Assembly: GCF_030463535.1 (NCBI RefSeq)
Contig: NC_132900.1
Location: 30,628,721 to 30,692,720 of the forward strand
Length of the DNA stretch: 64,000 nucleotides
Source of the DNA: Salminus brasiliensis
Lineage: Eukaryota; Chordata; Actinopteri; Characiformes; Bryconidae
Direction of reading: 5' to 3'
The position numbers and the translations under genes were made by a program. The notes below the pieces were generated by a model. It was not told where the DNA came from. It saw only the letters and a list, made by a program, of their open reading frames with translations, and made no database searches. Of this stretch, positions 14,270 through 37,708 are shown one piece after another (within the stretch, counting starts at the first letter, position 1; each line of letters starts with the position of its first letter).

Positions 14270-14560
14270 CACAACCAATCCTCCTGACACTACAAGGGTA
14301 AGGACTTTCCCCAAAGTGCCAGCAGGAGGGGTAGCCCCACCCCCCCAGCTATCAGCATCTGCTGTGCCAATCAACATCATTTAAGAGATGAATGGGGAAA
14401 GAATGCCATCTACACACCCGGAGAGAGCACCTTCAACGGTGCTCTCTCTGACTCCAGCTGCCGATGGCGAAGCAGCTTGCCTCGGGATTCGAACTCATGA
14501 TCCCCGGGCCTTAGTGGTAGCGCCTTAGACCGCTGAGCCACTCGGAGTCTCTTGCAACAA
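14270..14560 (-). mobile_element. tRNA-derived SINE (family A), full, reverse orientation
   Basis: On the minus strand: tRNA-like head with A box TGGCTCAGCGG and B-box-like AGTTCGAATCC (14545-14484), then the body blocks CAGCTGGAGTCAGAGAGAGC and CTCTCTCCGGGTG. Its head is the first unit of the tandem array that follows. Confidence 0.8.
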
Positions 14561-15420
14561 GTGCTTTTTTCCCCTTTGAGGATTCCCATAGTGTAATGCA
14601 TCCTTAAATATTTTATTTGCCCCTATTTTTTACCCCCAAAATGCAGCCCAGCTCGGGATTCGAACTCATGATCCCCGAGCCTTAGTGGCAGCGCCTTAGA
14701 CCGCTGAGCCACTCGGAGTCTCTTGCAACAAGTGCTTTTTTCCCCTTTGAGGATTCCCATAGTGTAATGCATCCTTAAATGTTTTATTTGCCCCTATTTT
14801 TTACCCCCAAAATGCAGCCCAGCTCGGGATTCGAACTCATGATCCCCGAGCCTTAGTGGCAGCGCCTTAGACCGCTGAGCCACTGGGAGTCTCTTGCAAC
14901 AAGTGCTTTTTTCCCCTTTGAGGATTCCCATAGTGTAATGCATCCTTAAATATTTTATTTGCCCCTATTTTTTACCCCCAAAATGCAGCCCAGCTCGGGA
15001 TTCGAACTCATGATCCCCGAGCCTTAGTGGCAGCGCCTTAGACCGCTGAGCCACTGGGAGTCTCTTACAACAAGTGCTTTTTTCCCCTTTGAGGATTCCC
15101 ATAGTGTAATGCATCCTTAAATATTTTATTTGCCCCTATTTTTTTACCCCCAAAATGCAGCCCAGCTCGGGATTTGAGCTCATGATCCCCGGGCCTTAGT
15201 GGTAGCGCCTTAGACCGCTGAGCCACTGGGAGTCTCTTGCAACTAGTGCTTTTTTCCCCTTTGAGGATTCCCATAGTGTAATGGGTTCTTAAATACATTG
15301 TCAGATTTTATTTTCCCCTATTTTTTACCCCCAAAATGCAGCCAAGCTCGGGATTCGAACTCATGATCTTGCAACGTGCTTTTTTTCTCCTTTGAGGATT
15401 CCCATAGAATAATGCATCCT
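14480..15420 (-). repeat. Tandem array of a SINE-head unit, period 171 bp
   Basis: The motif GGGATTCGAACTCATGATC recurs at 14484, 14655, 14826, 14997, 15169 (one variant) and 15350, giving spacings of 171, 171, 171, 172 and 181 bp. Each unit holds a complete tRNA-like promoter (A and B box, minus strand), a short tail and a shared 3' flank. Units 2-4 are almost identical, which suggests recent unequal exchange. Confidence 0.92.
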
Positions 15421-18478: not shown

Positions 18479-21400
18479 CTAATCGGTCATCATGTCCGCC
18501 CCCTCTCCTCCGGTGGCATCGTTGAGACTCAGGTCTTCGAGCATTTCAGCCAGAGAGATCCGGGGAGCACCCTCGTCATCTGTGTCGCTCTCCACAGGAA
18601 TCTTGGAGGCATCTGAACATGCAAAAACACACAAACAGCGCAAAGAGAGTAGTGTTAGGTCAACAGGCTTAACGGAGTGCAATCTGTGGAGAGCAAAATC
18701 CACTGAACTCTGTATTAAAGTTCAAAGCAGACTATTTGGGCGGAATCAGTTTTACATGCGGAGGTGGAGAAGTGATGGAAAGTATATATATATATATATA
18801 TATTTTTTTTTTTTAAGTTTATGACCGAGTGGCTACTTAATTTACATTCTGCTGTCACCTCCAAAAAAAAGAGATGATACATTTTAATATTTTAGAAGGT
18901 TGAGTTATCCCAGTCATGCTGCTAGTCATCGGCACAATTGGCCTTGCTCTCTCCAGGGTGGGTAGATGGCGCTTTTTCCCCACATCATTACAGTGTAGTG
19001 CTGGCTGGCACTGGCGTCTGCTGGCCAATGCATCAGAGCCGCATACACAGCGCTTTCCTCAGAGGCGCTTGACCCTCCAAGTGTCTCACATCAATTGTGA
19101 TAAGCAACGTGTATGTATGGGTTGGGTAATTGCCAATCCAATTTAAGGGGGGGGGGGGAGATGGGTAAAAATCTTAAAATAAAAAAAAAACCTAAAACTT
19201 AGCAGCTACATGTTCCTAACATACATGTAGTCTGTTGGCTATGTTACACAGAAGCGTAGTACCTCTGATAAGTCCTTGGGTTCTCTTCTGGATTGAAGGT
19301 TGTAATCCATACAACACCTGAGGTTTGCCACAGACTTAAACGGCCCAAAGTATCTGAGCCACGCACAACAAAACAGCTTCTCAAGCTTGAGAAAACCCAC
19401 AAAAATTTTTTTTCCATAGGATATGAAAGAATATTTACTCTCATTCCAATTCACATAAGATTAATAGACCCTGGGGTCTAGGTTAATAGAGCGTGGGGTT
19501 ATTATTAGGGCTTGTTTTTCAGAAGGTGTCAGAATCTTGACGTGGCAGCGCACACACACACATGGTGCAGCATTCAGACAGGACTAAAATCACTCTGGTA
19601 ATAAGTACATTAGCTCTCCTCCCCATGTAAAACTAATCCCATCCCGAACAGGGCTTTATAATCCATTTCTACATCACATGACAGAATAAGTGTGTATCAG
19701 GCCTCTCTAGCTTACTAGATGGCCTCCATACCTCTGAAGATGTTGACATTCTTTCTCAATGCCTCATCCTCTTCAAGGTCCTCCAAGAAGTCCTGGTATT
19801 GCCTAAAAAGGATCATTAAGCACAATAAGGTTATTTAGAGATTCTAGATGTACAAATCTGCCTGGATACAAGCGGAACCTGAAACTAAACCCGGACCAAA
19901 ACATCAGCTCAACTTTAAACTGCGCTCAAACCTAAACGAGCCATCAGAGGACACTTTGCTCCCTTACTTCTCATTATCGGAGTCCATGCCTTCTCTCTCC
20001 CGGTCCAGTTCCTTCAATTTCCAGTTCCTGCGCTTCATCCTCTTTACCCTGTCATAGCTCTTCTTAATCAGAACCTGAACACAGAAAGATCTGACAGTTA
20101 GCCCCCAGAAATAGTGAAACACATACATAATTATTAGTTAGTTTAAAGAGACAAATATGGTATTTACTAGTATTACACTATTACAGTTAGAACAAGCAAA
20201 GCATGTTATTAAAAGCTTCTCTTGTTTCTGAGCTTCTCATCTTCTGTTGATCTCATGTTTTCTGATGGGCCTTCATGGATTTGTTTTCTGGCTTTCAAGT
20301 CTGAATTTATGAGCCGTCGCTTATTTGCATGAAACCTGTTTTGCATTTAAAATGCTTGTGTGTGAGAGAGAGAGTGTTTCCATGTTTTAAATAAGCCACT
20401 CCAAGCTGTTCCATGAGACACAGAGAAGACATTCTTCTTATGACCAGAACAAGCAGAAATAGGTTACCCAATGGGCCACTAGGGGGCAGTATAACTTAGG
20501 CTACAAATAAGCATCAGCAATGATTTCATTACGTGGATTATGAGCTTTTCTTACCACGTCAGGAACGTGATGGGGATTCATCTTGTTCAGAAACTCGTCG
20601 TTGATGTTGGCATTGGCAAAGTCATAGCTGGAACATAAGAACCGGAAAGAAATATTAAAAATAAATAAATAAATACCACACACACATTTTACATTTTATG
20701 TACACTATTTGGACTAAAGTATTGGGACACCTGCTCATTCCTTGTTTATTTAGAAATCAAGGGTAGAGTTAGAGTTTCTCCTGCTTTTGTTGGATTAACT
20801 ATCTCTACTGTCCAGGGAAGCAGGCTTTCCACTAGATTTTGGAGAAGCATTGCTGTGAGGATTTGATTGCATTCAGTGACTAGAGCGTTGGTGAGGTCAG
20901 GATGTTGGATAATCACCACCCCACCTAATAAGCATTGGACGGAGCACCATCCATCATTCTAGTGAACACAGTTCCACAGCTCAATGTTGGGGGGCTTGAT
21001 ACCTTCTCTAGAGAGTCCTATTCTACTGGCTTCTCTATGTACTTCTCATCATAATGGGTGTTAAAGCTACTGAATGCAGTCATTAGAAGGGGTGTCCACA
21101 AACATTTGGACATATTGTGTATCTACTTGAAGTATGCAAGAGGCCTGGGTAAGGAAGTGATGTAACTGGAGATCAGCACTGATGGACAAGTAACTTAGGG
21201 AAGCTTTGGCACTCTTGTTTGAACTTCAACAACCTCTAGCAGGATTATTATATGCATATTTTACACTAAATACAAACATAAGGCTTGTTATTGAACCAAT
21301 AGCTGGTAGGAAGTATTTATGAATCAAAAAATGTTTCTTAAACAGATTATGGTCATGTGATAAGGGGACCCAGAGGTCCCAATATAGACAGGACACTGAC

Positions 21401-24400
21401 TACAAAATGATGCATCACTCCAACATTTTAACTGATAAATCAAGAACACAAGCAGACCAGAAACAAACAAAACAAGGTCAGATGTGATGTGATTGACCAG
21501 AGAGGAGAGATGTAGAAAGCAGAACAAGGTTCCCAGTACTGGAACTGAGACCCACTCATATAAACGATGTTGAAGCTTCAATAGCTCACCCTAACACCAG
21601 GTCGCCGATGTTGAGCAGGTGGCCCATGAAGGTGCGGCAGTGGTACTGCTGGCTGGTGTTCATCTCCGAGGTCTTCTGAACCCACACCTCAGCCAGCGTG
21701 TGCTGTGAAAATCCACATAAATACACCCATTTATCATCTGCTGGTGAGATATGCCATTACAGGGTACAGAAATGTTCGTAGATCAGAGGAATGAGGATAG
21801 TAACAGCTAAATGTTTGTCCCATTGAGGCAAAGTTACGAGCTGTTTGTCTGCATTTACTGATTCTCATGAACTTTTCTCTGAATGTCCTACTTCTCCTCC
21901 ACCCCCCTCCACCACCATCTCTTCAAGATGTTCTTTCTGTCCTAGGTACAAACCCCCTGCTTACTCGATTGGATCTCAGACCAGCTCCTGCTCCCAATTT
22001 CTGGTCCCTGATGATATCGATATCCATGATGATAAACTCCTCCAGCTGCTTTGGACTAAAAAGGCTGTTGAAAGGGTAGCGCCAGTAAGTGTTGGCATCC
22101 ACTTCTGCAACTGCAAGGAAAAAGTAATGGGATAAAGTGATGAGCTACAAAACTGAGCACTTCTGGTTTTAGATGTCAGATGATGACCACATGGGAACTA
22201 AGCAGCAGAGACAGATACTGTATGTACTGTATGTAAATTATGCTAAATTAAATAAATATTATGAGCTATTATATATCAGTTACTAGCCCAGAGGCAGAGT
22301 AAGGTAAAATGCATCAAATGATCATTCCAGCCTGATATGCACAAGAAATAACCAGCTGCAAAAAATCTGTGCTGGGGTAATGAACGGTGTCCAAAACTGA
22401 CCACCTGAAGGAAGCGTTCCAGTTTTTTTTTTTTCCCCTTTACGAAAAATAGGAACAGGTGGTGACAATGTGTGCAGAATGGCTGGTAATACAACATGAA
22501 GAAATTCTCCTACTGATGTCTGATACAGTACGAAAAACATAGCATAGCCTTTATTTTATTTTTTTTTTTTATGTCAGTTTTAAAACCTTCCCATCTTGTC
22601 CTTCATCTAAAGGACTATGCATTTACCCCGTTTATGCATTAGCTATAAAGGATGTAGCTGGCCTGTTTATGTGCCAACTGGAAAAAGTAACCCCAGCAGA
22701 TGCTGTGTAATACTGTATATACGGCATGTGCAGTGTAATTCTAGTACTACTCACGCTGCAGGGTGTTTGGATCGATGAGGTGGACTGTGCTGGTGACCTG
22801 GATGCACACGCACACCTGGCCCATGTTCCCTAGACTCTGGGCCAGACGAGGGGACATACAAACCACGTTGTCCTGGGAGACACACAAACACATTTTTATC
22901 AATTATACTGTATATGGAGTTAGAAACAAACACATGATCATCAGTTATTGCTGATTCTGATCTCAGTGTAGTGCAAAACACAGAGCTCCTACTAGGAGTC
23001 TAATGGGATGTTTATTTATATATATACACATCAAAGCATCAGAACAGACTTTGTGCGACTAATACTTTTTAAAAAATAATTTATTCTTAAATTTTACCCC
23101 AATTTCTACCCACTCCAGAAAGCAAATGACCAATCCCCAACAACGTGAACTCCCCAATCACTAGCGATGCCTCACGTGAAGGCGACCAGTGCGCTCAGAG
23201 GACAACACGGCTCCCCAGCGCCGACACCACAGACGCCTGTGCTGACCAACATCACACCATCAACCCACCCCTGAAAGAGCAAGGCCTATTGTGCTCTCCC
23301 TGACTCTGGCTGCTGATGGCAAGCAGCATGACCTAGGATTTGAACTAACGATCCTCTGATCATAGAGGCAGCGGAGTGGGTAGAAATTGGGGTAAATTTA
23401 AGAATAAATTATTTTTAAAAAGGTCCACTGGACCTCTCAGTTTTCTTATCTTTCTTTATTCTCATTCTCTCGCTGCCATGAAATTAAAATATTGGAAAAT
23501 AAAAAAATATTTCCAATATTCTGGTCTCAATCCTTTTTATTTCAACTCATGAAATCATGGTGCTCTGGATGACAGTTGAGCAGAAACACATTAAACATGT
23601 GAATATTTACATTATACTGCGTAACACTACAACTACAGGCTGTCGCAGTTACCCCAAAGTAGGGGTAATATAAATGGAAAGGAAGCTAGCCTCATGCTTT
23701 TGGGGGGGGGGGGGGGGGGGTTGGTGCTTTGGTGCTTTCCTGCTGTTGTAACAAACTCGTACCAAAGTCCAAACTGCATTAGGGCTTCATGATATTGGGA
23801 GAAGGGGGAAAGCAATGATATTGGGCAGATATAATCTGCCTCTGGTAGATTAGTCATAGAGGACGAGAACAGTGAAATGCTCCTTTTGCAAAAATGCAAC
23901 AAGCACGCTGAACACATTCAGGGTATATTGTGGAGCCAAATCATGAGAGTTACACCTCTAGCTTCCACAAAAAATGTGTGTAAAGGTTGACAGGCCTGGA
24001 AAGGATTATTTTCGTACTGCATACACTCCCATATATTTACTCAGGCAAGTCAGAGCCAAGTATTCTCACACTCACATTCACCCTCATACACGCCCAGCCA
24101 AAGAAATCACTGCCAGAGATGATAATGCTCCCCAGACACTGCAACACCGTGATTTACTTTGAAACGTGCATCTGTAAAAACTCCACTGATAAGCTTGTGT
24201 AATGATGCATACCTTACAGATGGGCACAATCTCCACCGAGAAGGTGCTTTTGTAGTTGTAGGTGTTGGAATGCACATCGTGAGAGATGAGACGCTGGGAA
24301 GCCTTTGATCTTCACAACAGAGATAAAAGTTAATTCATTAGCTTGTTTCATAATCATCTAAATGCAGCAGAGGAAACATTTTTTTTTATCTGTGATGGAA

Positions 24401-27400
24401 AAAAGAGCTTTTCAAAAAAAAAGGCAGAATTTATTGTGGAGTGAAAAATTCTGATTAAATGCACATGTGAAGTGAAGCCCCACTGAATCAGGTGAACCCT
24501 AATTCATTTTTTACCGTCTGCTCCTGACACATTTTTGTGAGGGGGAACGGGTAGAGCTTGCAAAATAAGGTTGAATCCCTGAGCCTCATACCTGCAGGGC
24601 ACAGTGCACTGAAGAAAATCCACCATCTTTTGGGCATGCTGCTTGGTGCCATAGTAAAAATCGATGCCCTCTAAAAGGAAGGAAAGGGGGGGGGGGGGGG
24701 GGGGGGGGGTTAGAGAGCATAAAAATGAAGCAATTTAAAAATAGAGCTGTGCACTGTTCAATCTGCCAACTGTCGCGCTTCCAACATGAGAGCGTACAGA
24801 ACGTTCTCCTGTAACACGGTCCAGATGGAGGGGTTGCCAATATGGCCGCCACATGTCAAGCATTCAAAGGTTTAAATCTATTTTCACACCCGTAACCCAA
24901 CCTTGTGTGTTGGACCCTCGATCATCAGCAGCTGAAATTTTGGAGCTCTTTCTACTGTTCCAGAAATAGTGAGAAGCAGGAACTGTTCAGGAGATCTGGA
25001 ATAGTGAGCTGGTCTTAAGGAGAAACTGGATACTACAACTAAGAGGGCTGGTTCCACCTTTGGGGTTCACCTCGATATCTTTTTAAATGGATGCTAAACC
25101 AGCCCTGACGTGTGTTATGAGCTGTAACAGAATAACAAATATACTAGATCCTAAAATAGTCCATTTATTTTTACACAACCACTTTCCAACCTCTCATTTC
25201 TCTCATAGAACTAAATTGAATTCTAAGAACAACAACAAGAGGTATCCCAGTGGTTCAGCGGTCTAATGCACTAGCACTATGGCCCGGGGGTCGGGAGTTC
25301 AAACCCAAAGTCATACTGCTTTGCCATTAGCAGCCAGAGTCTGCAGGAGCACACTCTTATAGCGGTGTTGGTCGGCACAGGCGTCTGTTAGCTGGTGAGA
25401 TGGAGCTAGGTACCCGCCGCCGGCTTCACATGCATCAGAGGAGACCTGTGTTTAGGCCTTACTGGGAGCATTGCTAGTGCTGGGGGGAGATAGGAACAGG
25501 TGGCTTTACTGGCGGTACCAAATGTGGAGAAAGAGAAAAACCCAGGCAGACATGAATATGAATGGGCGGAGCTAATCTGTGGTTGGCTGATTAGTTGAAG
25601 ATATGTAAATGAGATGTTTCTTGTGACATCAGAGAACCAGTGAACTGAAAACAGGCTTTCAACCCATGGTAGTTTTCATATGTTGGCTGGGGGGTGATTT
25701 GTACATTAAGCATTATAATGTTTACACGCTTGACATTTTAACTTTTATTTTATTTTTTAAATTAATTAATTTTTTCCATTAGGGGTCCTTTAAAAATAAC
25801 ATACCATGGATCTCCTTGATGCGAAGAGTGTTCTGGTGCACCCGGTGTTTCAGAATTAGCTGTTCCAAATAGTAAAAGGTCTTCTTGTGAACAGTCTACA
25901 CAAAAAAATAACAGGTAAAAAAATGACATATTAATACAGATAATACAGTCAGATATAGACTGGCTGACCGCTTTTCCCCCTGGTAACCACATCTGGATGT
26001 GTACTGAAAATATTTATAAGGCTGGACTGAAAGAACACCCTGGGAACTATTAAACTTGGCTGTTTTATTATATTTTACTTCTGTGGTAGACCACAGCTGA
26101 CTAAAGTACAACCAAGCCAAGATTATGCCCTGGATTTAAAGTTGTGTCCAAGCTCATGTTCAGCAGGTCCTTACCTTCTGTCTCACTTGCACAACCGCCT
26201 TCCAAAAGTCTTTGGCTTCAACTCGATGGCAGTCATCACACATCTGCGGCTGTATGATGTACTCCACCACGAACACCTGCTGCAAGATTGCTCCATTCAT
26301 GACCTGTAGAGAAACCAGATAGATATAGATTTCAAAACAAGAGCTAGAAGAGCTTCTACTATTCTATCAATGCTTAACAGCCAGCAAAAGCACCTCTTTC
26401 TGAATGGTCAGCTTCAACTTGATTCTTTTAGAATGGGGTTCTGTCCATAAGAAGCCTGCATCAATGAGCCGGACCTAGGCAGAATAAGGAACACAGTTCA
26501 GAGACCCAACCACAGTATAGGATCAGTGCAGCTGGTTATGCTGTTGGCACTATTTTCTTACCTTAGTCATTGAGCTCTTAAGTTTCTTCAGACAGAGAGC
26601 GAGTAGCTCCCTGGACTCCAGGGCACACTGCACCCATGTGCCTGGGGGCTGCAGGTACCTATTGGAACAGATAAGGGAAGCTGTCAGTCAGGCAAAAGAA
26701 CCGATTCACTCACGAAACACCAAGACTACTACAGCCTGGAATAGATGTGCATGGCCTCAAGCCCTGAGCTTCATAACAAGTAATTTGTTGTCAAAATGCC
26801 TTTAGCAACTCAATCCTGCTACAATTTTATTAAATGAATGGTTCAGATAAAAGTCACATGCTTCTCTACCCTTCAATGACTGGTGTGTAGTGACTTAGCT
26901 TGTCCAGAAATGCATGTGTAAAGTGTGTCCTTTAGTGGTGGTTAAAAGAAATCTAATAAAGAGAGCTGGATTTTAATTTCTCAGTGCATGTATGCTCCTT
27001 TACAACAGTTCTCTGGACTCTCTTCACTGTAAGGTGACTCCAGGAGCAAGACATACAGATTCTCATATACCAGTGCTTATTGATGTGGTTTAGGACACAT
27101 TGGGCCAGTCATTAAAAATCTTTTCTAGTTTTGATTATTATTCAGTTAATTTTTGGTACATTAGCATGATTAAAACCTCTATGTGCAAACTAATGTAGAC
27201 AAATGGCAAGATTGTTAATGTGCCATTTAAAGACTCACTGCAGTGTTTTTGCTTTAAATAATTACAGCCCAAAAACACTGCTTATCTAGTGCAGGGGGAT
27301 CCATCTTATATACTGCAGTAATTTAATTCCAGCATAAATAACATCAAACAGCTTATTACGTTAATTAAAACTTATGGAAATGTTACTGTTTCATTTTAAT

Positions 27401-30400
27401 TAAATTTTCTAAAATACGTTTTGAAAACAATTTTAGCTCTCGTAAACAGGGTGGGTAGATGGTGCACTCTCCCCCCACCAATCACTTATCAGCAACGCTG
27501 GCCCAAACAGGCGTCTGATAGCTGCTTCGTGGAGCTGGAAATCCAGCCTTTTCCGCAGAGCACGTTGGCTGCCGGGCAATGCCCCATCAGGGGTAGTTTA
27601 AAAAGAGGCAGCAGCTGGTTTTGCATGTATTTGAGAAGGCGCGTGTTAAATCCCTACCCTTCTAATGTTTGGAGAATTGCTAGCGCTAGGGGGAACAACA
27701 GACAGGTGGGTTAACTTGCAGGGGAAAAAAATAAAAAATAATAAAATAAAACTCAACCTTTGGTGAAGCTGCACAAGACCTCTCACCAGATCTAAATAAC
27801 CTGAGTCATATTAATGTAAAATCCTGTAGTATTACTCTACCGCCTTAGTCCACATTTCTCTACCCAGTGACACTTCTGCATCTCTCAGCTTGTCCAGAAA
27901 TGTACACGTACAGGCGGCGCATACATCTATGTGTATTTATGGCAGTAGTGAATTTCACTCCCCAACTGTAGTGGGAGCCAAGGAGTGACAAATATCAAAT
28001 ACCATGAAAAATGCAGAGCTTAAACTAAAGAAGACACTCCACTCAATGTACCTCCAGGCTTTTATTTCAGTCATTTAGGCTCCATGTGAGAACATCAAAT
28101 ACAGAAGAAATACAAAAACAACTTATTTTTGTGGTTTACGATGTGCGTATGGATTCTGGAAACAAATAACGCATCAGTCATACTCCACATTTCCATGATT
28201 TGCTGGGAGCTCGCAAGACAAAGTACAAAATATCAAGCAGACACAAAAATAAAAAAGATAACACCGCTAACAGTATTTTCCACAAGGCGTCTCCAACGTG
28301 TCCATAACCTCTCCAAATACATGCATATCATGCCATTTAAGTAATTAGGAGGTAGGCTCCAAAATACACTATATGGACAAAAGTATGTGGGACATCCAAA
28401 CAACACCTACTATGACTTTTCTAAACTCATAGGCATTAATATGGAGCCGGTTCCCCTTTGCTCTAAGCTCTACCAGCAGCAGCAGGTCTGGAGCTCTGCT
28501 GCAGTTATTGAGTCAGTTGGAGGCTTTTCTGCACTCTGCTCTGAGCTCAGCACTCGGCCCTGACCCCGCTCTGTAACTTCACATGGTCTGACTCTTGGCA
28601 GCGGAGGAGTTGCTTGTCCTCAGAGCTCCATTAACGTAAGGTTAACTGTAGTCTCTACAGCAGATCTCTTTGGTCGCTTTAGCAGTGTCGAATGTCGCAC
28701 CCATCATAATGTTCTACATGTCGTTCAAATTCTCCAACGACAATTAGGTCCCGTATACAGTACACTAGATTGTTATTCAAAATACAACATAAAACCGAAA
28801 ACCAAACCAATTAACAGAACTTTCGGGCAAACAAACCAACCAATTCGGTCAACATTTAAGTAAAAACAACAACTAAGCTGATCAGGCAACTGTAAGTGCT
28901 CTACTTAATACAAAAAATAAGGTTACAGTGTTTTGTTCGTTGAATAAGCAGTTTTACAAACTGTAGCCTAAAGTTCTAACTACTGAACAAGTTCTAGCTA
29001 CATAGAGAGTTAGTGACGATTGTAGTTAGTTTTTTGCTCCCTTTGCTATTAAAAAAAAAAAAGTGTGATTAATTAAAAAGGTAATTAATGGATCCACAAT
29101 GATGTCTGCACAAAGAACAAGCATCACTGCTGGAGGTAGCCTCCGTTACTCATCTCCACTTTTCCATTTCAGTAGTTTGAGAACTGTTTAGCTTATTTAA
29201 GGTTCAGGAGCATGTTTACACTAGGCAGTAACATGCGTTAGTGGTGATCGGATCACCCCCAGGAAGCACCGTGATCGGATTGCGTCCGGATCACTCAAAG
29301 CCCATTCGGAGGTGGGCAGAGATCAGTACATTTAAGACAAGTGTAAACAGTTCAGTTGGGAGATATATATATATATACACACACACACACTTTTTTCACA
29401 ACGTTGTACTATCTCAAAATAATACAGCTGGACTGCAGTTTGCAGAAACTCCACTTATGAATGTCTAGACGAGGCCGACTCGAGCATCCGGTGTCTAATG
29501 AACGAGTAACTGCTGCTGAAAGAAAGAACAGAAGCTGAATTTAAAGTTTTGGATCTGTAGCCACTCGCTAAGCTAGCCTTTGCTTAGCTAACTCAGCTAC
29601 AGCTCCACCGAGTCTCAACCAGCCCAGGGCAGCTGCTGCTGACTAACTGCTGACCCCGACACAAGTGCTGACCGTAAAATCTCCGGTCTGAAAGAGCGAA
29701 ATGGAGCGACTGGTGTTGGGAAGAACAGAAAGGAGAAAGGAGAGGCCGGTTCTGCTAGGTTTGGACTCATAGCCGGCTATCTAGGCTTAGATAAGTTAGC
29801 TAGCAGGCTAAACACCACAGCACAGGCCGTGTTCCAGATAACCGAGGCTCAAATCCATCTGTTTAGAGGATAAAGCCTCGTATCTGAGAGCGCAGAGTAG
29901 AAGGAATGATTTTAGGAGTGTTTTCAGACTAATTTTGTAGACCGGATCATCCAGGTTAGCTTGCTCTGTCCTTCAGTGTCACCAAACACGTAACTTGGGC
30001 CTTGGTTTTCAGAGCCTCACTAGTCAGTGAGCAACCACAGAACCACCCACCCTGTGGCTCTTTATTTGGACATGTACTAGATACAGACACACAACAGCAA
30101 TTTAATAGACGTCCCAACTTTGAGATTCAACATTTTTTTAATACCAAAGTGCTACGATAGTACCGTTATACGGTCCAAGACCAGTAAATGCACTTTCTGG
30201 GATCAAATACTGTAGTCAAGCGTCAAAAGGATCTGTCGAATGCTGCCAAAAAACGTGAATAATTACACGAGTAATTATTATTGTGGATATTGACTTCACT
30301 CGCTCCCTCTGTATTTGTGCACTTATTTACCAAACAGCGACGGCGGTATTAAGAGTTCGTTCCCTTGCATTTGGGATTTGCTTGGTCCTTTGATTTTTTT

Positions 30401-33400
30401 TTTCTTTTATTATAGAGCCATTACAGGAATGTGAGAACCATCTATTTGGTCCCCCGTGTTGTAGAAGAACCCCCACCATTGCTCTAACCAGTTTACAGTC
30501 TCCCGAAGCTGTGATGAGAAACGGTTGTTTACAGGACATTTACGGGAACTTAAGTCCTTGAGTTTTTTTACGCTGTAAAGTAAATCCAGATCTCATCTGG
30601 TCACACTAGGAATGCATTTCAGTAACAAGTGAAAACAGGATCCAGTCAAACTAGGTCCAGATACTACACGCATGTGCTTTAGGATTCAAATCTAGCCAAC
30701 TCACAGACTGCTTAACACGTTCCACAGACAGTCTATGTGCCTAAAACCTCTTCTGGTCATGCCAGTCTGTAAAGCACATCCGGTCCACAACGACGCAGAG
30801 TGGAACGCCGCAAGATCTGCACATGAATATTGTTTTCATCTTGCAGTGCGCACACTTCCTCCTCCCTTGCGTGGCCTTCAGGCGAGGATCAGCGGATAAC
30901 GCGCACACTGGGACAGGGAAGCACCCCTGTGGTTTGCGCTCTAGAGCTTTAGGGGGCTTAACGGGAGATGCAGAGGATGTCTCAATGGCAACCGCTGCAG
31001 GTGTAGACACTTGTGGCTTCCCGACATCAGCCAGCTCCATGCACAACACCTCCCTGAAGCGCTTCTGGGTGAGGGGCTTCTGCTGCTTTGCCAGTGCCAT
31101 CTCCTTGTGGATGATAAAGCTGTTCACCACTGCAATATCAATAAAGTGGAGAAACAGCTTCACAAACCAACGCCTGGTCTTCTGAGTAACAGAGAAGTAC
31201 TTAATGAGAGCGTCGGATAGGTCAACTCCTCCCATGTACCGGTTATATTCCTTCACAGGCTCGGGCACGGGGATCTGGTGGGTGCACCAGGTGCCATCTT
31301 GACTTCTGATTCGACGATGCACAGACTGCCCGCCATAAGCTTTGTGGACAGTGGAGCACAGAGCGACATCCCGCGCGTCCCTCCACTTTACGAACAGCAA
31401 CGGACCATCCCTAATCCATCGCATGTCACCACGGCCCACGTTCTTTGGCAGGGCATTGACTGTCGTTTTCGGGAAGCCTATCCTGTTCTCACGGATGGTG
31501 CCACAGGCCCCAAAACCAAGTTTGTGCAGGTGCCGGAAGAGCAGCGTGCTGGTGTAAAAGTTGTCGACATACACCGTGTACCCTGTGCCCAGAGAGGGCA
31601 CATGGAGCAGGTGGACAACAACGTCAAAGCTAAGGCCATTTCCTGACGGTTGCTTAGCCTTGCCCTCATAGACGCTAAAGTTATAGGTGTAGCCACTGGT
31701 GCTGTCGGCCAGGACGAAGAGCTTGTAGCCCCACTTGGTGGGCTTGTGCTTCATGTACTGCTTCATCCCGATCCTCGCCCTGGTGGCCACCATGCGTTCG
31801 TCTATAGAGAGGTTCTGGCGGGGGTGGTAGTAGGCCTTGCAGGCAGCCAAGATCTGATCCTGGAGAGGCTTGAGGCGGAAGAGACCATCATATTCAGGCT
31901 TACCTCGGAGCTGATCATTCTTGGCGCTTTCCTTTGGGTCGCTCATTTGCAGGAACGCAATGATGGCGGCATACCGGTAGCCAGGCATCACAGAAATAGG
32001 AAATGGGAAGCTGTGCAAGCAGTCCTTCCTCCAGAGGTCCACGAAAGATGAAGGTCTCACAAGTCCAAGATAGAGGACTATGCTAAAAAAATGAAACATT
32101 TCATCAGGCGTCACGTCCGTCCACCGCCTCTTCATGCCCTCTGCGTGTTTCTGTGCCGCGTAGTTGTTGGTATTGTTGCACAAGGTTCGCATCACCTCTT
32201 TACTAAAGAACAGCTGAAAGAGATCAGAGGGGCTATAGTTTGCCGTAAAATCCAGCTGAACTCCTGGGGTCTTCCTGGGGCGAAACGGCAACGGAGGAGG
32301 CTTCTGGTCTTCCTCCGAGGGATAACACCACCTGTCCTCAGGTGGTGGTGATACTGTAGACATCTCCACGTCAACGCTAGGTTGTTGCCCAGCTGAGCTT
32401 TGTGAATGGCCTTTGGGTGCCGGAGACGACGGTATGAACATTCTTCTCTTTGCTAGAGTTGGCGATGCTGTGCAAGTCCGCTTTTTGACACCAGGTTGTC
32501 GCCTAGGTGAGGTACGTGAGGGGCTTCCAGACGTTGGAGACAGTGGTATGAACATTTTCTTAGTAGGAGATGGTGATGTGCACATCTCCACTTTGACACT
32601 GGGTTGTTTGCTTCCAGATGTTGGAGATGTTGGTGGTATGAGGCTTGTGCTTCTGGTGTCTCCAACATTAGCCTGTCCTCTAGCATAAGTATAAGGAGTG
32701 TCCACAGAATAAGGAAGGGTCGAAGCTGAAGTCCCTGGGAGTGGGTCACAAGAGGTAGGACAGACGCCATGTTGGGGAAGGTTGGATGGATCAGCTTCAC
32801 TGCAAGAAAAAGATAGGACAACAAGACCAAATGGATAAAACAGGCAACATTAACAGCGGACCTCTTCTCATCCTGGACTTCACCTCTTCCAGCCACTTCC
32901 CTCTGGTAGAAGATTCAGGGCCATCCAAACCACGTCAACCAGACATGCTAACAGCTTTTCACCCAAAAGAGCTGTAGAGCTCATTAAAGGGGCGCAACGA
33001 CTAATCAACTTAGTCGACCAAAATCAATGACCAAATTAGTTAGCATTTAATTTAATAGTCGATTTGCTGGCGAAGTCACCACACGTTTTTTGTTTTTTTT
33101 TGTGTGTTTTTTTTTTTACACTAACTAGGAACTAGCACATGCATCATGAATTAATTGCTGTTACTTTTTACAGTAATTCCCTGAATCTGGACGCAGAGAT
33201 GCAATGAAGACGTACAGAGCAGCTGTCCGTCACGTGAACAGAGCGGGTGGATAAAACTGGTACGGTCTGTAAACACTGAGCCACAAGAGCGGCAAGGCCT
33301 CACACACCTTTAGCGGCATCACAGTGGTGTGTGTGAGCGTAGAGCAAAGTTCTATTAGTGGGAGGCGTGGGAGTCTCAGATGGACTCAGACTAAATGGGG

Positions 33401-36168
33401 AAAAAAAGGAGAACTCCCGCAGAACCACAGACTCCACTATTAACCTTTACTGTGAAACAGAACAGGGGAGTTGGGGAAATAATAAATAAATAAAAAGTCA
33501 CAAATAGACAATAATCAGGCCATGTCAAAAAGTCATTAATACAAACAACAAAAAAATACAATAAGAATAAACATCATTAATACAAACAGAACAGTAACAA
33601 AATACAATACGAACATTTTTTTAGTTGTAAGTTGTTATATTTTATTGCTGCTACTTTACACATTCTGGGTTTTAAACTTAGACAGGAAAAACATATTGGG
33701 AGTTTTGTGTATATATTAGCATATTAGTCCATTAAAACAGTAACGTTTAACGTATTGTCTTCACTGTTAGTAAGTAAGTGTGAAAGCAGAACTTCTGCTG
33801 CTTTGCCAGTGCCGTCTCCTTGTGGATGATGAAGCTGTTGGTGAAGCTGTTCACCAGCGCAATATCAACAAAGTGGACAAGCAGCTTCACAAACCAACTC
33901 CTCGTCACAGAAATGAGCTTTGAGACCATCACACAAGACAACTCCACACAAGCTTTTTGAACTCCCTGACGGGCTCCGGATCGGGGATTTGTTGGATAAA
34001 CCAGACGTCATCTTGACTTGCTGCACTGTCTTCCCACTATAAGCATTGCGGACAGCAGAGCACATCACTTCACAAACAGCAATCGGCCGTCTCACATCCA
34101 CTGCCTGTGACCAACGTCCCTTTTGTCTTAGCAAGGCACTGATTGTTGTTCTTGGGAAGCCTATCCTGGTCTCACGGCCTCATGGCCCCATGAGCCACAA
34201 CAAATAGAGTGCGCATCAAGGACCGACTGATTTACACATTCCCCAACCTCATTCAGTAGGTGACCAATCAAGGCAAGTGACCCATCTGCGTTTTCATGTG
34301 AGTGGGTACTATTTGTTGGGCCCATCACTTCTGGGACATCTGGGATTTAATTGGACACCTTTAAACACCCCTGTGATCCAGTTTTCATGCACTACAGATG
34401 CAAAAGACTGTCCCTCATACAGTTCTCCATAAAACTTTACATTGCCTGGTCAGTGAGAGCTTGAGAATATTATATTAATATTACAATAGAATTGTTTCTT
34501 CATGGTTTGTGTGATTTCAGCAAGCAAATAAGGAACTTTACAGACATTTCATTTACTTGTTTCAACATGTGAACAGGGGTGGAATTTGCAGAAAGTTAGA
34601 TTAGGGAGGAGGGGCTTCAGGCACATTCCTCCTCCTCCCCTCCTAAACCAGTTATTTCATGAACTGAGGTTCGTGTGTATTTGCATATCTGTGGCAGCAA
34701 TGGGTGCAACTTACAGTAGCTGAATGCATTAATCAGAAGAGGTGTCCGTAAACATTTGGACATATAGTACAGTTTAAAAAGCTGTGTTTTTGGGAATGCA
34801 CACCCCATGTTTAAACATTTAGGAAAGGCAGGGTGTATGCAGTATGAGATTTCTGGCAAACAGTCTAAAAATTGGTATTACTATTTCTAAGAAATTTGAG
34901 CGTCTGTGCGATAATATTCCACATTATGAAATATGACCCATTAGATAGCCAGAACAGTCCACTTCTGCTTTAAAACAGGTTAATGAAGACCTGGATGTGA
35001 GCTGAGAGAAAAATGTGTGGGCATGCATGTACAGGTATTTTTGTTGACTTTTGGCTTCTCTTTTTGTAAGCAACATTAGCCTCACTGCTTCAGTTTAGAA
35101 CTGTTTAAAGAAGCTGGACTTCCAACATGGTCTTGACTGATCAAATACGTTTTAATTGTGTACCTAATTGTGTAGGTGTGATTTTAATAGGGTGGCAAAA
35201 CAATATATAGAAAATAATGAAGTACCTTTCACACTGCTTGCAGAAATGTACAGAGACTTGTTTTGGGATTCCCTCAGAAATGTCCACCTGGGTCCTCAGG
35301 CACGAGACACACATGTTGGCTGGATTTGGAGGAATGGGGACGCCACACGTGCAGCAAAGGCTACAGAAAGAAAGCAGGTTAGTTCATAATAACAATAATA
35401 ATAATAATAATAATAATAATATAAGCTTCATTTTCATGGGAGGTGTGCAATGAGGGACCTCTTGCTTAACCACCCATGTAGGTCAAACTTGTGCAGTCTC
35501 TTTCCGATGGCAAGAGATGTACTTTGACATCACCTGTGGCAGTTGTAGCTACTTATAGGTCCCATGATGACTTCTTTCATCATCTGCTCTGTTCTGCTCT
35601 TGGGCTGAACTTGCTAGGACAGCCTGACCTGGCCATGTTGGTCAGCTGTTCCACTTGTAAATAATTTAGCGGACAGTGGAACGGCTGATTTTTAATTCTT
35701 CTGAGAGCTTTTTAAACCCCTTCCCAGACTCCTCTGTATCTACACTCTTCTTTCTGAAGGACTCAGAGAGCTCTTTGAGCTGGCCATGGGGATCTTCACC
35801 ACTCACTTAAAAGATCAAGAGCAGAATATTCCTGCAGCTGATGTTCAGAACCAGATTTCAGATTCTTCTCCTACACTCCTCACCTTTCAATTTGCAAATG
35901 ATTAAACTGAACTCTTTTCAGTGTGTTTGATTATATCAGCTCCATCTCCTAATACGGCTCAAATAAAGATCTAATGGTCATATGTTTAAATATGTTAAGA
36001 AACAAAGGTTATTCATGGGGTTTCCAAATTGGTTACGGATCCTACTGACAGTTAGTAGCAAATACTGGGAAAACTAATGACAGTGTAAATACGAGTGGAG
36101 CTTGTAGACCCCTGCAATACTCACATATTCCCTTGACTGCTGGTGGCTGGGGACTGCATGTACTCCAT
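18479..36168 (-). CDS. nmd3: 60S ribosomal export protein NMD3, complete gene, 15 coding exons
   Basis: Coding exons in transcript order: 36168-36125 (ATG), 35360-35226, 26658-26562, 26474-26394, 26303-26175, 25895-25805, 24670-24592, 24309-24213, 22872-22755, 22110-21965, 21702-21590, 20627-20555, 20074-19968, 19802-19732, 18612-18479. All introns are GT-AG and all phases join. The sum is 1515 nt, or 504 residues, against 503 in human as I recall it. The protein follows vertebrate NMD3 throughout. The N-terminal zinc ribbons have CxxC pairs at C17/C20, C32/C35, C55/C58 and C141/C144. A basic stretch lies at about 405-422. The acidic tail ends in a leucine-rich nuclear export signal (ISLAEMLEDLSL, 479-490). 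NMD3 is the adaptor that joins nascent 60S subunits to exportin CRM1/XPO1. Odd points are a piggyBac in the intron between coding exons 2 and 3, a huge pyrimidine array before the ATG exon, and a weak donor (GTGCTT) after exon 4. Confidence 0.96.
18782..18815. repeat. (TA)n followed by a T run
   Basis: AT dinucleotide run, then ten or more T, in the last NMD3 intron. Confidence 0.9.
18915..19160 (+). mobile_element. tRNA-derived SINE (family A), headless copy in the NMD3 intron
   Basis: It starts in the body at GGCACAATTGGCCTTGCTCT, then TGGGTAGATGGCGCT and GCGCTTTCCTCAGAG, ending in a G run at 19148. Confidence 0.7.
20699..21122 (+). mobile_element. Tc1-type MITE (family M), copy g, in the NMD3 intron
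   Basis: The 5' end TACACTATTTGGACTAAAGT and the 3' end AACATTTGGACATATTGTGT surround the internal blocks. Confidence 0.9.
23065..23422. mobile_element. SINE flanked by a near-perfect 50-bp inverted repeat
   Basis: The left arm, 23065-23116 (ending ACCCCAATTTCTACCCACTC), is the reverse complement of the right arm, 23373-23422, apart from a few single-base differences. Between them is a reverse-oriented SINE related to family A, with GCTGCTGATGGCAAGCAGC and a B-box-like GATTTGAAC. The whole can fold back. It lies in an NMD3 intron. Confidence 0.85.
23701..23720. repeat. Poly(G) run of about 20
   Basis: Uninterrupted G run on the plus strand, in an NMD3 intron (C run in the transcript). Confidence 0.95.
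24686..24709. repeat. Poly(G) run of 24 abutting an NMD3 3' splice site
   Basis: In the NMD3 transcript this reads as 24 C, followed by TTTCCTTCCTTTTAG and then coding exon 7 (starts 24670). The run therefore lies 14 bp from the acceptor AG and is part of the pyrimidine tract. Confidence 0.95.
25240..25540 (+). mobile_element. tRNA-derived SINE (family A), full copy in an NMD3 intron
   Basis: Head with A box TGGTTCAGCGG and degenerate B box AGTTCAAACCC, body with GCTTTGCCATTAGCAGCCAG, GGCACAGGCGTCTGTTAGCT and GGGAGCATTGCTAGTGCTGG. Confidence 0.82.
26660..27440. other. NMD3 intron, no feature seen
   Basis: AT-rich unique-looking intron sequence with no exon-like or repeat-like block recognised. 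Confidence 0.5.
27445..27730 (+). mobile_element. tRNA-derived SINE (family A), headless copy in an NMD3 intron
   Basis: The body begins at GGGTGGGTAGATGGTGCACT and runs through AGGCGTCTGATAGCTGCTTC and GAATTGCTAGCGCTAGGGGG to an A-rich tail. Confidence 0.75.
28367..28740 (+). mobile_element. Tc1-type MITE of a second family sharing the family M terminus
   Basis: It begins ACACTATATGGACAAAAGTA followed by TGTGGGACATCC, but the interior (CCGGTTCCCCTTTGCTCTAA, TGGAGGCTTTTCTGCACT) is unlike the other copies. The right end is not defined. Confidence 0.6.
28741..30740. other. NMD3 intron and probable 3'UTR of the piggyBac exon
   Basis: No exon-like blocks of NMD3 are present. A minus-strand AATAAA (plus-strand TTTATT at 30406-30411) lies about 330 bp past the transposase stop and could serve as its poly(A) signal. 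An AT/CA microsatellite is at 29365-29391. Confidence 0.45.
30741..32799 (-). CDS. piggyBac transposase-derived protein, intact ORF, inside an NMD3 intron
   Basis: The open frame runs from a strong 3' splice site (CTATCTTTTTCTTGCAG, AG at 32801-32800) to a stop at 30741. From the GTG at 32705 it is 654 residues; the frame is open for 31 more codons back to the splice site. There is no in-frame ATG in the first 70 or so codons, so the start must come from an upstream exon or lie far downstream. The DDD triad of the RNase H-like domain is present: D302 (SIDERM), D381 (VYVDNFYTS) and D495 (MGGVDLSD). The C-terminal cysteine-rich domain is complete, with C618, C621, C629, C632, C637, C644 and H649. 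The N-terminus has three imperfect Ser/Pro-rich repeats of about 36 residues (around QPSVKVEMCT, QPGVKKRTCT and QPSVDVEMST). piggyBac enzymes cut and paste at TTAA. I could not find convincing TTAA-flanked terminal repeats. It is on the same strand as NMD3. Confidence 0.93.
32820..32992 (+). pseudogene. Fragment of a LINE reverse transcriptase C-terminus
   Basis: In the plus strand the frame around 32900-32990 reads LPSGRRFRAIQTTSTRHANS and then FSPKRAVELIK, the common end of fish L2/Rex1-like ORF2 proteins. It lies just upstream of the piggyBac exon. Confidence 0.65.
32985..33080. mobile_element. Possible hAT-type transposon end
   Basis: The sequence GGGGCGCAACGACTAATCAA and CTTAGTCGACC resembles the starts of fish hAT elements. 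No transposase is seen. The assignment is from memory of the motif. Confidence 0.35.
33775..34190 (-). pseudogene. Second, decayed piggyBac transposase copy
   Basis: On the minus strand it matches residues of about 405-540 of the intact copy: RIGFPRTTINALL, then VRNAYSGKTVQQ, and, after a gap and frame shift, SWFVKLLVHFVDIALVNSF with HKETALAKQQK. It carries frame shifts, a short in-frame duplication (NSFTNSF) and a deletion over the third catalytic Asp. It has the same orientation as the intact copy, about 1 kb upstream of it on the minus strand. Confidence 0.88.
34675..34772 (+). mobile_element. Tc1-type MITE (family M) 3' end only, copy i
   Basis: GCAATGGGTGCAACTTACAG, GCTGAATGCATTAATCAGAA and the terminus AACATTTGGACATATAGT. 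Confidence 0.8.
35391..35420. repeat. (AAT)n microsatellite
   Basis: Ataata run about 30 bp upstream, in the transcript sense, of NMD3 coding exon 2. Confidence 0.93.
35650..35985 (-). repeat. Possible dispersed DNA-transposon-like repeat
   Basis: The block around CAGTGGAACGGCTGATTTTT and CAGAGAGCTCTTTGAGCTGG resembles a repeat I have seen in other fish genomes, but no second copy lies in this window. Weak support. Confidence 0.3.
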
Positions 36169-36176
36169 GACTGTGG

Positions 36177-37473
36177 AGACAGACAGAGAGAGAGAGAGAG
36201 AGAGAGACACACACGGAGAGAGAGAGAGAGAGAGACACACACGGAGAGAGAGAGAGAGACACAGAGAGAGAGAGAGAGACACAGAGAGAGAGACAGAGAC
36301 AGACACACAGAGAGAGAGACAGAGACAGAGACAGACACACAGAGAGAGAGACAGAGACAGACACACAGAGAGAGAGACAGAGACAGACACACAGAGAGAG
36401 AGAGACAGACACACAGAGAGAGAGAGAGAGAGAGAGACAGAGACAGACACACAGAGAGAGAGAGACAGACACACAGAGAGAGAGAGAGACAGACAGATAG
36501 AGAGACAGATAGAGAGACAGAGACAGATAGAGAGAGACAGAGACACAGATAGAGAGAGACAGAGACACAGATAGAGAGAGAGACAGACAGACAGAGAGAG
36601 ACAGACACAGAGAGAGACAGATAGAGAGACAGAGAGAGAGACAGAGACACAGATAGAGAGAGACAGACAGACACAGACAGAGAGACAGACACAGACAGAG
36701 AGAGAGAGACACAGACAGAGAGAGAGAGACACAGACAGAGAGAGAGACAGACACAGACAGAGACACAGACACAGAGAGAGACAGACACAGAGAGAGACAG
36801 ATAGAGAGAGACACACAGATAGAGAGACAGAGACACAGACAGAGAGAGAGACACAGACAGAGAGAGAGACAGACACACAGAGAGAGAGAGAGAGAGACAG
36901 ACACACAGAGAGAGAGACAGACACACAGAGAGAGAGACAGACACACAGAGAGAGAGACAGAGACAGACACACAGAGAGAGAGAGACACAGAGAGAGAGAC
37001 AGAGAGAGAGGCAGAGAGAGAGGCAGACAGATAGAGAGACAGATAGAGAGACAGAGACAGAGACACAGATAGAGAGAGAGAGAGACAGAGACACAGAGAG
37101 AGAGACACAGAGAGACAGACAGACAGAGAGACAGACAGAGAGAGAGACACAGACAGAGAGAGAGACAGAGACAGATAGAGAGAGAGACAGAGACAGATAG
37201 AGAGAGAGACACAGACAGATAGAGAGAGAGACACAGACAGATAGAGAGAGAGACACAGACAGATAGAGAGAGAGACACACAGACAGATAGAGAGAGAGAG
37301 ACAGACAGATAGAGAGAGAGAGACAGACAGATAGAGAGAGAGAGACAGACAGATAGAGAGAGAGACAGACAGATAGAGAGAGAGACAGACAGATAGAGAG
37401 ACAGACAGAGAGAGACAGACAGATAGAGAGACAGACAGAGAGAGACAGACAGATAGAGAGACAGACACACAGA
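36177..37473. repeat. 1.3-kb CT/GT-type pyrimidine (GA-rich) array in NMD3 intron 1
   Basis: The plus strand is almost only A, G and C in GAGA, GACA and GATA units. Local higher-order units are visible (for example GACAGACAGATAGAGAGAGA at 37300-37450). In the NMD3 transcript it reads as a pyrimidine-rich CTCT/CTGT tract ending TGTCTCCACAG directly before the start-codon exon. The very long minus-strand ORFs here are produced by the repeat. Confidence 0.97.
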
Positions 37474-37708
37474 CATGTAACGTTACAGAATAAACACAAT
37501 AATAAAAATAAACAGTTTAATTCCCCCTCTCTCACACAGCTGCTTTTTGTTTGGTAAAATAAAGAAACTACAGTGTATATAAAGCGTTTCTGGATCATTA
37601 AGCGTCTCTATAATAAAAACATTTGAGAACAAAATGATGTTTAATATGCTCTGTAACCCGCAGGCGCGCGCTGATGCTAACCAGCTTTAGCAACATAACG
37701 TTACTCAC

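Follow-up and report, generated by a model that had tools for sequence, protein, structure and literature searches.

The described system closest to the locus reported here is CSB-PGBD3 of primates, in which a piggyBac element in intron 5 of ERCC6 provides an alternative 3′ terminal exon and for which, in the accounts cited, both the transcript and the protein are proven (PMC2268245, PMC3459987). PGBD3 is described as having an acceptor 7 nt before its own ATG, together with TTAA and inverted repeats, and that description terms piggyBac elements natural exon traps (PMC2268245). A separate account reports one D-to-N change in the triad of PGBD3 and places the transposases of PGBD1, 2 and 3 in one 3′ terminal exon each (PMC3902484). 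Among the titles and abstract starts listed for the literature on NMD3 with piggyBac (20 of 3,832 papers) or transposase, and on piggyBac exon traps, an NMD3–transposase fusion is absent. The work of Cosby et al. in 2021 is reportedly on transposase capture.

The window, that is, the whole stretch of 64,000 nucleotides that was analysed, corresponds to positions 30628721–30692720 of contig C27 within a 1.07-Gb genome. Placement with a human NMD3 sequence, followed by refinement of the exon limits by hand, revealed NMD3 on the minus strand as 15 coding exons that run from 36168 to 18479 and specify an unbroken 504-aa product. Coding exon 1 (36125–36168, minus strand) carries the ATG at 36168 and ends in phase 2 at the donor TAT|GTGAGT; coding exon 2 (35226–35360, minus strand) reaches residue 59 and also ends in phase 2, at a weak donor (AAG|GTACTT); and coding exons 3–15 (18479–26658, minus strand) are intact. 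The CxxC pairs encoded by the first two exons lie at residues 17/20, 32/35 and 55/58, and intron 2 extends from 35225 to 26659 (~8.6 kb). With exon 2 as a query, the genome returned one candidate, NMD3 exon 2 itself, and thus no fusion retrocopy is seen. Elsewhere in the window, positions 36177–37475 are a 1.3-kb CT/GA microsatellite that stops a few bases before the 3′ splice site of NMD3 exon 1 and that reads, on the NMD3 strand, as a pyrimidine tract of extreme length, and positions 14481–15368 hold a tandem repeat with a 171-bp unit in ~5 copies that are 95% matching.

Between coding exons 2 and 3, on the NMD3 strand, intron 2 contains a transposase open reading frame (ORF) at the coordinates that a sequence-only reading of this DNA had given; the frame is open from 32849 to 30741, 702 codons from stop to stop. 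The predicted transposase exon (30741–32799, minus strand) comprises 1 base, 685 codons and a stop. That reading had also put the ATG-less stretch at about 70 codons, and 71 codons without an ATG indeed follow the acceptor: with the complete codon at 32798 counted as the first, ATG initially occurs at codon 72. The proposed junction is confirmed as well: NMD3 exon 2 leaves AG, the junction codon AG|T specifies Ser and the frame is open to the stop at 30741, so that exons 1 and 2 with the transposase exon form, as had been calculated, one open frame of 745 aa (NMD3 residues 1–59, Ser and 685 codons). Exon 1 alone is likewise in frame with the transposase exon and would give 700 aa (14 NMD3 residues, Ile and the transposase); this exon-1-only join, and a decayed relative of the transposase within the same intron (described below), were both missing from the sequence-only reading. 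Our main reading, to which we assign a probability of roughly one half, is that the transposase exon is a candidate domesticated alternative last exon of NMD3, with a mechanism like that of CSB-PGBD3.

The identification of the ORF as a piggyBac transposase is borne out by a full-length match to DDE_Tnp_1_7 (positions 1–349 of 349; E 5e-78), at 263 bits where the cut-off is 22.4, which places the catalytic domain at 31116–32234 (minus strand), from residue 206 onwards in the 702-codon frame. Among structure chains, the ORF matches the piggyBat chain 9c0f (E 3e-42) and the transposase chain 6x67 (E 4e-36), which we take to be the T. ni transposase. Residues D350, D429, D543 and D546 (numbered in the 702-codon frame), which are presumably the catalytic aspartates DDD(D), are kept in the ORF and are common to 9c0f, 6x67 and a relative on contig C28. 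The C-terminal cysteine-rich region (30759–30854, minus strand) matches zf-Tnp_2 at 18.3 bits, below the cut-off of 24, and six cysteines are invariant there in four sequences. An AlphaFold model built from four sequences has a mean pLDDT of 53, which is low confidence, with residues 1–192 below 50.

The 3′ splice site of the transposase exon (32800–32817, minus strand; CCTATCTTTTTCTTGCAG, phase 2) has its AG at 32801–32800, preceded by TTTTTCTTGC. When splice sites were scored by a consensus matrix, this acceptor reached 10.4 and ranked 5th of the 553 AGs scanned from 35165 to 26700, in keeping with the earlier description of a strong in-frame site at this position. Set among the acceptors that NMD3 itself uses for exons 2–15 (range 4.1–11.5), it would take 4th place out of 15, and the rival acceptor of NMD3 exon 3 scores 6.9 by comparison. 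The exon-2 donor (4.56) is the second weakest of the 14 NMD3 donors and the exon-1 donor scores 6.52; agreement in phase by itself would arise by chance in 1 case in 3. The AATAAA at 30406–30411, which had been put forward as the end of the transcript, is present on the minus strand but is a weak candidate. It lies within an old dispersed repeat and was not seen at that place in ten aligned copies of the repeat (in two of which that place is gapped or dissimilar), and there is no G/T-rich stretch downstream of it: G/T content is 27% after the AATAAA at 30411 versus 67% after both an ATTAAA at 30142 and an AATAAA at 30066.

Relatives of the transposase elsewhere in the genome suggest an origin for the acceptor. 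The first exon of the C28 gene (locus L086, minus strand from 1154) consists of an ATG, 56 codons plus 2 nt in all, and the donor GC|GTGAGT. The main exon of this gene starts AG|A GAA and that of a decayed relative on contig C1 (L027) starts AG|A ACC, and the C28, C1 and NMD3 copies each leave one base before whole codons. The acceptors on C28 and C1 score 5.8 and 7.3, below that of the NMD3 transposase exon. An acceptor of the same phase in C28 and C1 makes it likely that the exon split is ancestral to these elements, and the comparison indicates that the acceptor was probably built into the transposon family. A relative on contig C8 was considered as a third case of this phase and was not counted, its CAG|G GAG sitting in sequence that aligns with C1 coding sequence. 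The earlier proposal that the architecture of CSB-PGBD3 arose independently in NMD3 holds in one part: the architecture itself (same strand, an intron, an in-frame acceptor and an ATG-less frame) is real, but the words "arose independently" sit poorly with the same-phase acceptor in C28 and C1 and with the ATG exon of C28, which point to an acceptor that came with the element. What is novel here would be that the element has lost its native first exon and may have been adopted by NMD3, the inherited acceptor having been orphaned and then, on our main reading, taken up by the host gene.

We looked for a surviving native first exon in two ways. As a query, the C28 first exon gave no minus-strand match in the window better than E 0.6, and across the genome its matches, every one of them on C28, were the query exon, a copy of 98% identity at a distance of 7 kb and one weak match. 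Paths from an ATG to a phase-2 donor at a threshold of at least 4.5 within 35225–32850 numbered two, both antisense to a LINE fragment. The first exon of the C28 gene and its copy occupy C28:23140959–23141129 and C28:23147886–23148056; this two-exon gene (L086 1154–985, minus strand, plus L022), with its acidic ATG exon, is apparently intact and may itself be domesticated.

That the 71 ATG-less codons are open is, taken alone, weak evidence of coding: an open stretch arose by chance in 5.7% of 5000 shuffles, and a second frame is also open there. Codon usage gives no support for the coding nature of this stretch, with log-odds that are lower in frame (−14.5) than in either of the remaining forward frames (−2.0 and −2.4), and its GC3 is 0.34 versus 0.67 for the transposase core; the 119 codons that follow are also negative (−25.7), and the codon-usage model may be a poor fit for the N-terminal part of the transposase generally. 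That N-terminal part contains three imperfect in-frame repeat units of 31–40 codons (32331–32648, minus strand; codons 51–156). Where units align significantly as nucleotides, the gaps span 3 bases, and the start of the first unit precedes the methionine at codon 72 (M72), which together hint at translation upstream of M72. Differences among the units, summed over the three pairs, number 32, 31 and 47 at codon positions 1, 2 and 3, a third-position excess that is mild only.

These features bear on an alternative in which the transposase is a domesticated piggyBac gene that is transcribed from a promoter of its own within the intron, with a start at M72 or in a diverged ATG exon that went undetected, and in which no fusion is made. 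A start at M72 has a purine at −3, precedes the DDE domain (residue 206) and would give a protein of 614 aa with a complete catalytic domain; codon usage upstream of M72 lends no support to coding there, and such a gene would explain the constraint described below equally well. A diverged first exon could have escaped detection, the C28 first exon matching places on C28 only. Such a gene accounts less readily for a frame that is open past M72 up to the acceptor, for in-frame repeats that start before M72 and for a strong acceptor that has been kept in the phase of its relatives, and we consider it possible but improbable.

We next turn to the number of copies in the genome. To keep a dispersed repeat from dominating the results, the DNA search used the ORF alone as its query; because the search skips very common words and scores the best candidates only, very old copies could be missed. 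It gave three candidates, all of which were scored: the ORF, a neighbouring fragment of 68% identity and short old matches on contig C11. No further close copy of the ORF was found by this search of the 1.07-Gb genome, and beyond the decayed neighbour and the C11 matches it showed no sibling or non-autonomous copies, MITE-like relatives being unsearchable without known ends. At the protein level, the best-scoring other place among the 65 matches listed is on C28 (48% identity). No relative of the ORF was confirmed in viral contigs (two scans) or in prokaryote contigs (one scan). The transposase looks like the sole intact copy of its kind within the genome. Other open piggyBac frames are present at L003 on C20 (698 aa) and L006 on C5 (576 aa), which are possibly PGBD-type genes. 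Decayed piggyBac fragments with equal scores recur, many times on a single contig, in C14 (18.6–20.6 Mb), C12 (14.3–21.6 Mb), C10 (23.1–28.4 Mb), C16 and C6 (29.8–31.5 Mb); those on C14 are spaced ~200 kb apart, as if in large duplicated blocks.

The neighbouring fragment (33792–34215, minus strand; genome search match 33792–34177) is the decayed remainder of a closely related transposase, at 68% DNA identity, and lies ~1 kb upstream of the ORF on the same strand and in the same NMD3 intron. Its alignment covers 452 bases of the ORF and contains 10 indels, 8 of which are not multiples of three, and it has 1 stop among 131 comparable codons. In a relative-rate test, changes in the fragment and in the ORF were polarised by two outgroups, C28 and C8. 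With C28 (131 codons), amino-acid changes were 27 in the fragment to 1 in the ORF, the remaining codons being all the same (41), common to ORF and fragment (38) or all different (24); fragment-to-ORF counts were 32:7 at codon positions 1 and 2 and 7:13 at position 3. With C8 (124 codons) the contrast has the same direction and is weaker, with amino-acid changes of 17:4, 26:13 at positions 1 and 2 and 14:11 at position 3. The share of divergence that falls to the fragment is ~0.15 per site, as inferred from 92 differences at 407 sites. Simulated as neutral, the ORF acquired stops that averaged 3.7 when divergence was 5% and 10.5 when it was 15%, and 0 of 600 runs stayed open at 0.10 or 0.15. 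Taken together, the rate contrast and the simulation argue that the ORF was held open by selection while its neighbour decayed, that is, that the ORF appears to be constrained relative to the fragment.

For that selection to have acted inside NMD3, the ORF and the fragment would have to be a local duplication. If instead two members of one subfamily inserted independently, the rate test would report selection on a mobile transposase and not domestication in place, and the constraint could stem from mobile life. This alternative overlaps the other readings, and the odds of the several readings are therefore not additive. Homology between ORF and fragment is confined to coding sequence, with no common non-coding flank, as separate insertions would leave it; yet the search of the 1.07-Gb genome gave no equally close match at any other place, and arithmetic on intron and genome size puts the chance that two insertions would arrive in the same 8.6-kb intron in the same orientation at ~4e-6. 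We hold two insertions to be rather unlikely, and on our main reading the constraint would have acted while the exon sat in NMD3.

The flanks of the ORF are old sequence on both sides. Upstream is a fragment of LINE 3′-coding sequence (32840–32985, plus strand), 79–85% identical to the 39 other places scored, whose homology ends ~30–40 bp upstream of the acceptor; downstream, an old dispersed repeat (30258–30702, minus strand, its far end uncertain) begins ~40 bp past the stop codon and differs by K ~0.25 from the majority sequence of ten others (the best matches listed). Over positions 27001–36400 of the window, no pair of TTAA-anchored terminal inverted repeats exceeded shuffles (best 11/16, against 10–11/16 in five shuffles), and the ends of the element thus appear to be lost; the best TTAA-anchored pairs of the C28 relative, scored without a shuffle control, are 9/16 and 8/16. 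With no ends and no siblings found, the locus fails as a mobile piggyBac transposon. Insertion of the element into the LINE was considered, the homology stopping near 32826–32840, close to a TTAA at 32853–32850, and was rejected, the other half of the LINE not having been found beyond the ORF. Dating by the 3′ repeat was also abandoned, as its far end and a flanking duplication could not be fixed; the ten copies, being the best matches listed, are biased towards young ones.

The description of piggyBac elements as natural exon traps, in which the ORF is preceded by a 3′ splice site (PMC2268245), and the same acceptor phase in the C28 and C1 relatives mean that the architecture alone needs no host selection. 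Even so, it is distinctly unlikely that the locus is a late or lucky transposon remnant, of a family kept by mobility, with eroded ends, an unbroken ORF, splicing that is noise and no host function, given that no sibling copies were found by DNA and no terminal-repeat or TTAA pair above shuffles, that only ~40 bp separate the ORF from an old repeat (K ~0.25) on one side with an old LINE fragment on the other, and that the neutral chance of acquiring neither stop nor frameshift, with the frameshift rate scaled from the decayed fragment, is ~0.45 × 0.08 at 1% divergence and 0.21 × 0.006 at 2%.

We return to the main reading, that of an alternative last exon of NMD3, for which the case has gained, relative to the first account, in copy number and constraint and has lost in the poly(A) signal and in whether the first 71 codons are coding. 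The ancestral element would have been a split-gene piggyBac, with a native ATG exon, a phase-2 intron and one large transposase exon. Inside NMD3 intron 2 it would have lost its first exon and both of its ends, leaving an orphan phase-2 acceptor that fits the donor of NMD3 exon 1 as well as that of exon 2. The exon of the transposase would then be used as an alternative last exon, with expression driven from the NMD3 promoter and ATG, and the predicted products would be proteins of 745 aa (59 NMD3 residues, Ser and 685) or 700 aa (14 NMD3 residues, Ile and the transposase), made beside normal NMD3. We infer that the splice is made and that the fusion protein exists.

The likely consequence would be a DNA-binding transposase that bears the first zinc finger of NMD3. 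In yeast, this finger is described as docking on eIF6/Tif6, and the remaining cysteines of the second finger are placed near residue 143 (PMC6579518, PMC6393466). An exon-2 fusion would hold the complete first CxxC/CxxC finger and half of the second, and the docking on eIF6/Tif6 may have been passed on to it. The fuller claim, of a catalytically complete, domesticated piggyBac transposase made as an alternative 3′ isoform of NMD3 with an eIF6/Tif6-docking zinc finger, in an independent parallel to CSB-PGBD3 in which the host gene replaces a lost first exon, is one that we advance tentatively and consider doubtful. Were it true, a DNA-cutting or DNA-binding enzyme would be tied to the 60S export machinery, and a second independent case in a housekeeping gene would back the notion that piggyBac elements are prone to capture by way of a ready acceptor. 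The C28 and C1 relatives suggest the route, in which the native phase-2 acceptor, once orphaned, comes to lie downstream of phase-2 exons of a host gene.

Comparison with known systems places the locus as follows. The C28 piggyBac gene has, like the NMD3 copy, a phase-2 junction before its main exon (48% amino-acid identity), but has its own acidic ATG exon, is without the long N-terminal repeat region and lies outside NMD3. The piggyBac–herpesvirus elements of the Teratorn type in teleosts are alike in that they contain fish piggyBac transposases, as described (PMC5822658), but no relative of the NMD3-intron ORF was confirmed in viral contigs. PGBD1 and PGBD2 of mammals resemble the NMD3 locus in having upstream exons and an uninterrupted 3′ terminal transposase exon, and differ from it in being, by the account cited, annotated genes with transcripts (PMC3902484). 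CSB-PGBD3, as far as the reports cited above describe it, shares with the NMD3 locus a piggyBac transposase that occupies one exon inside an intron of the host gene and whose ORF directly follows a 3′ splice site, compatible host and transposase frames, and upstream host exons to supply the ATG. Unlike the NMD3 locus, which is without detectable ends, it keeps its TTAA, its terminal inverted repeats and its MER85 relatives; the first ATG follows the PGBD3 acceptor by 7 nt whereas it is 71 codons in at the NMD3 locus; and the triad has a D-to-N change in PGBD3 whereas the aspartates are kept in the NMD3-intron transposase. CSB-PGBD3 is proven by transcript and protein, whereas the NMD3 fusion is predicted from genome sequence; by its mechanism, which would be like that of CSB-PGBD3, the locus is a good candidate for a host–transposase fusion.
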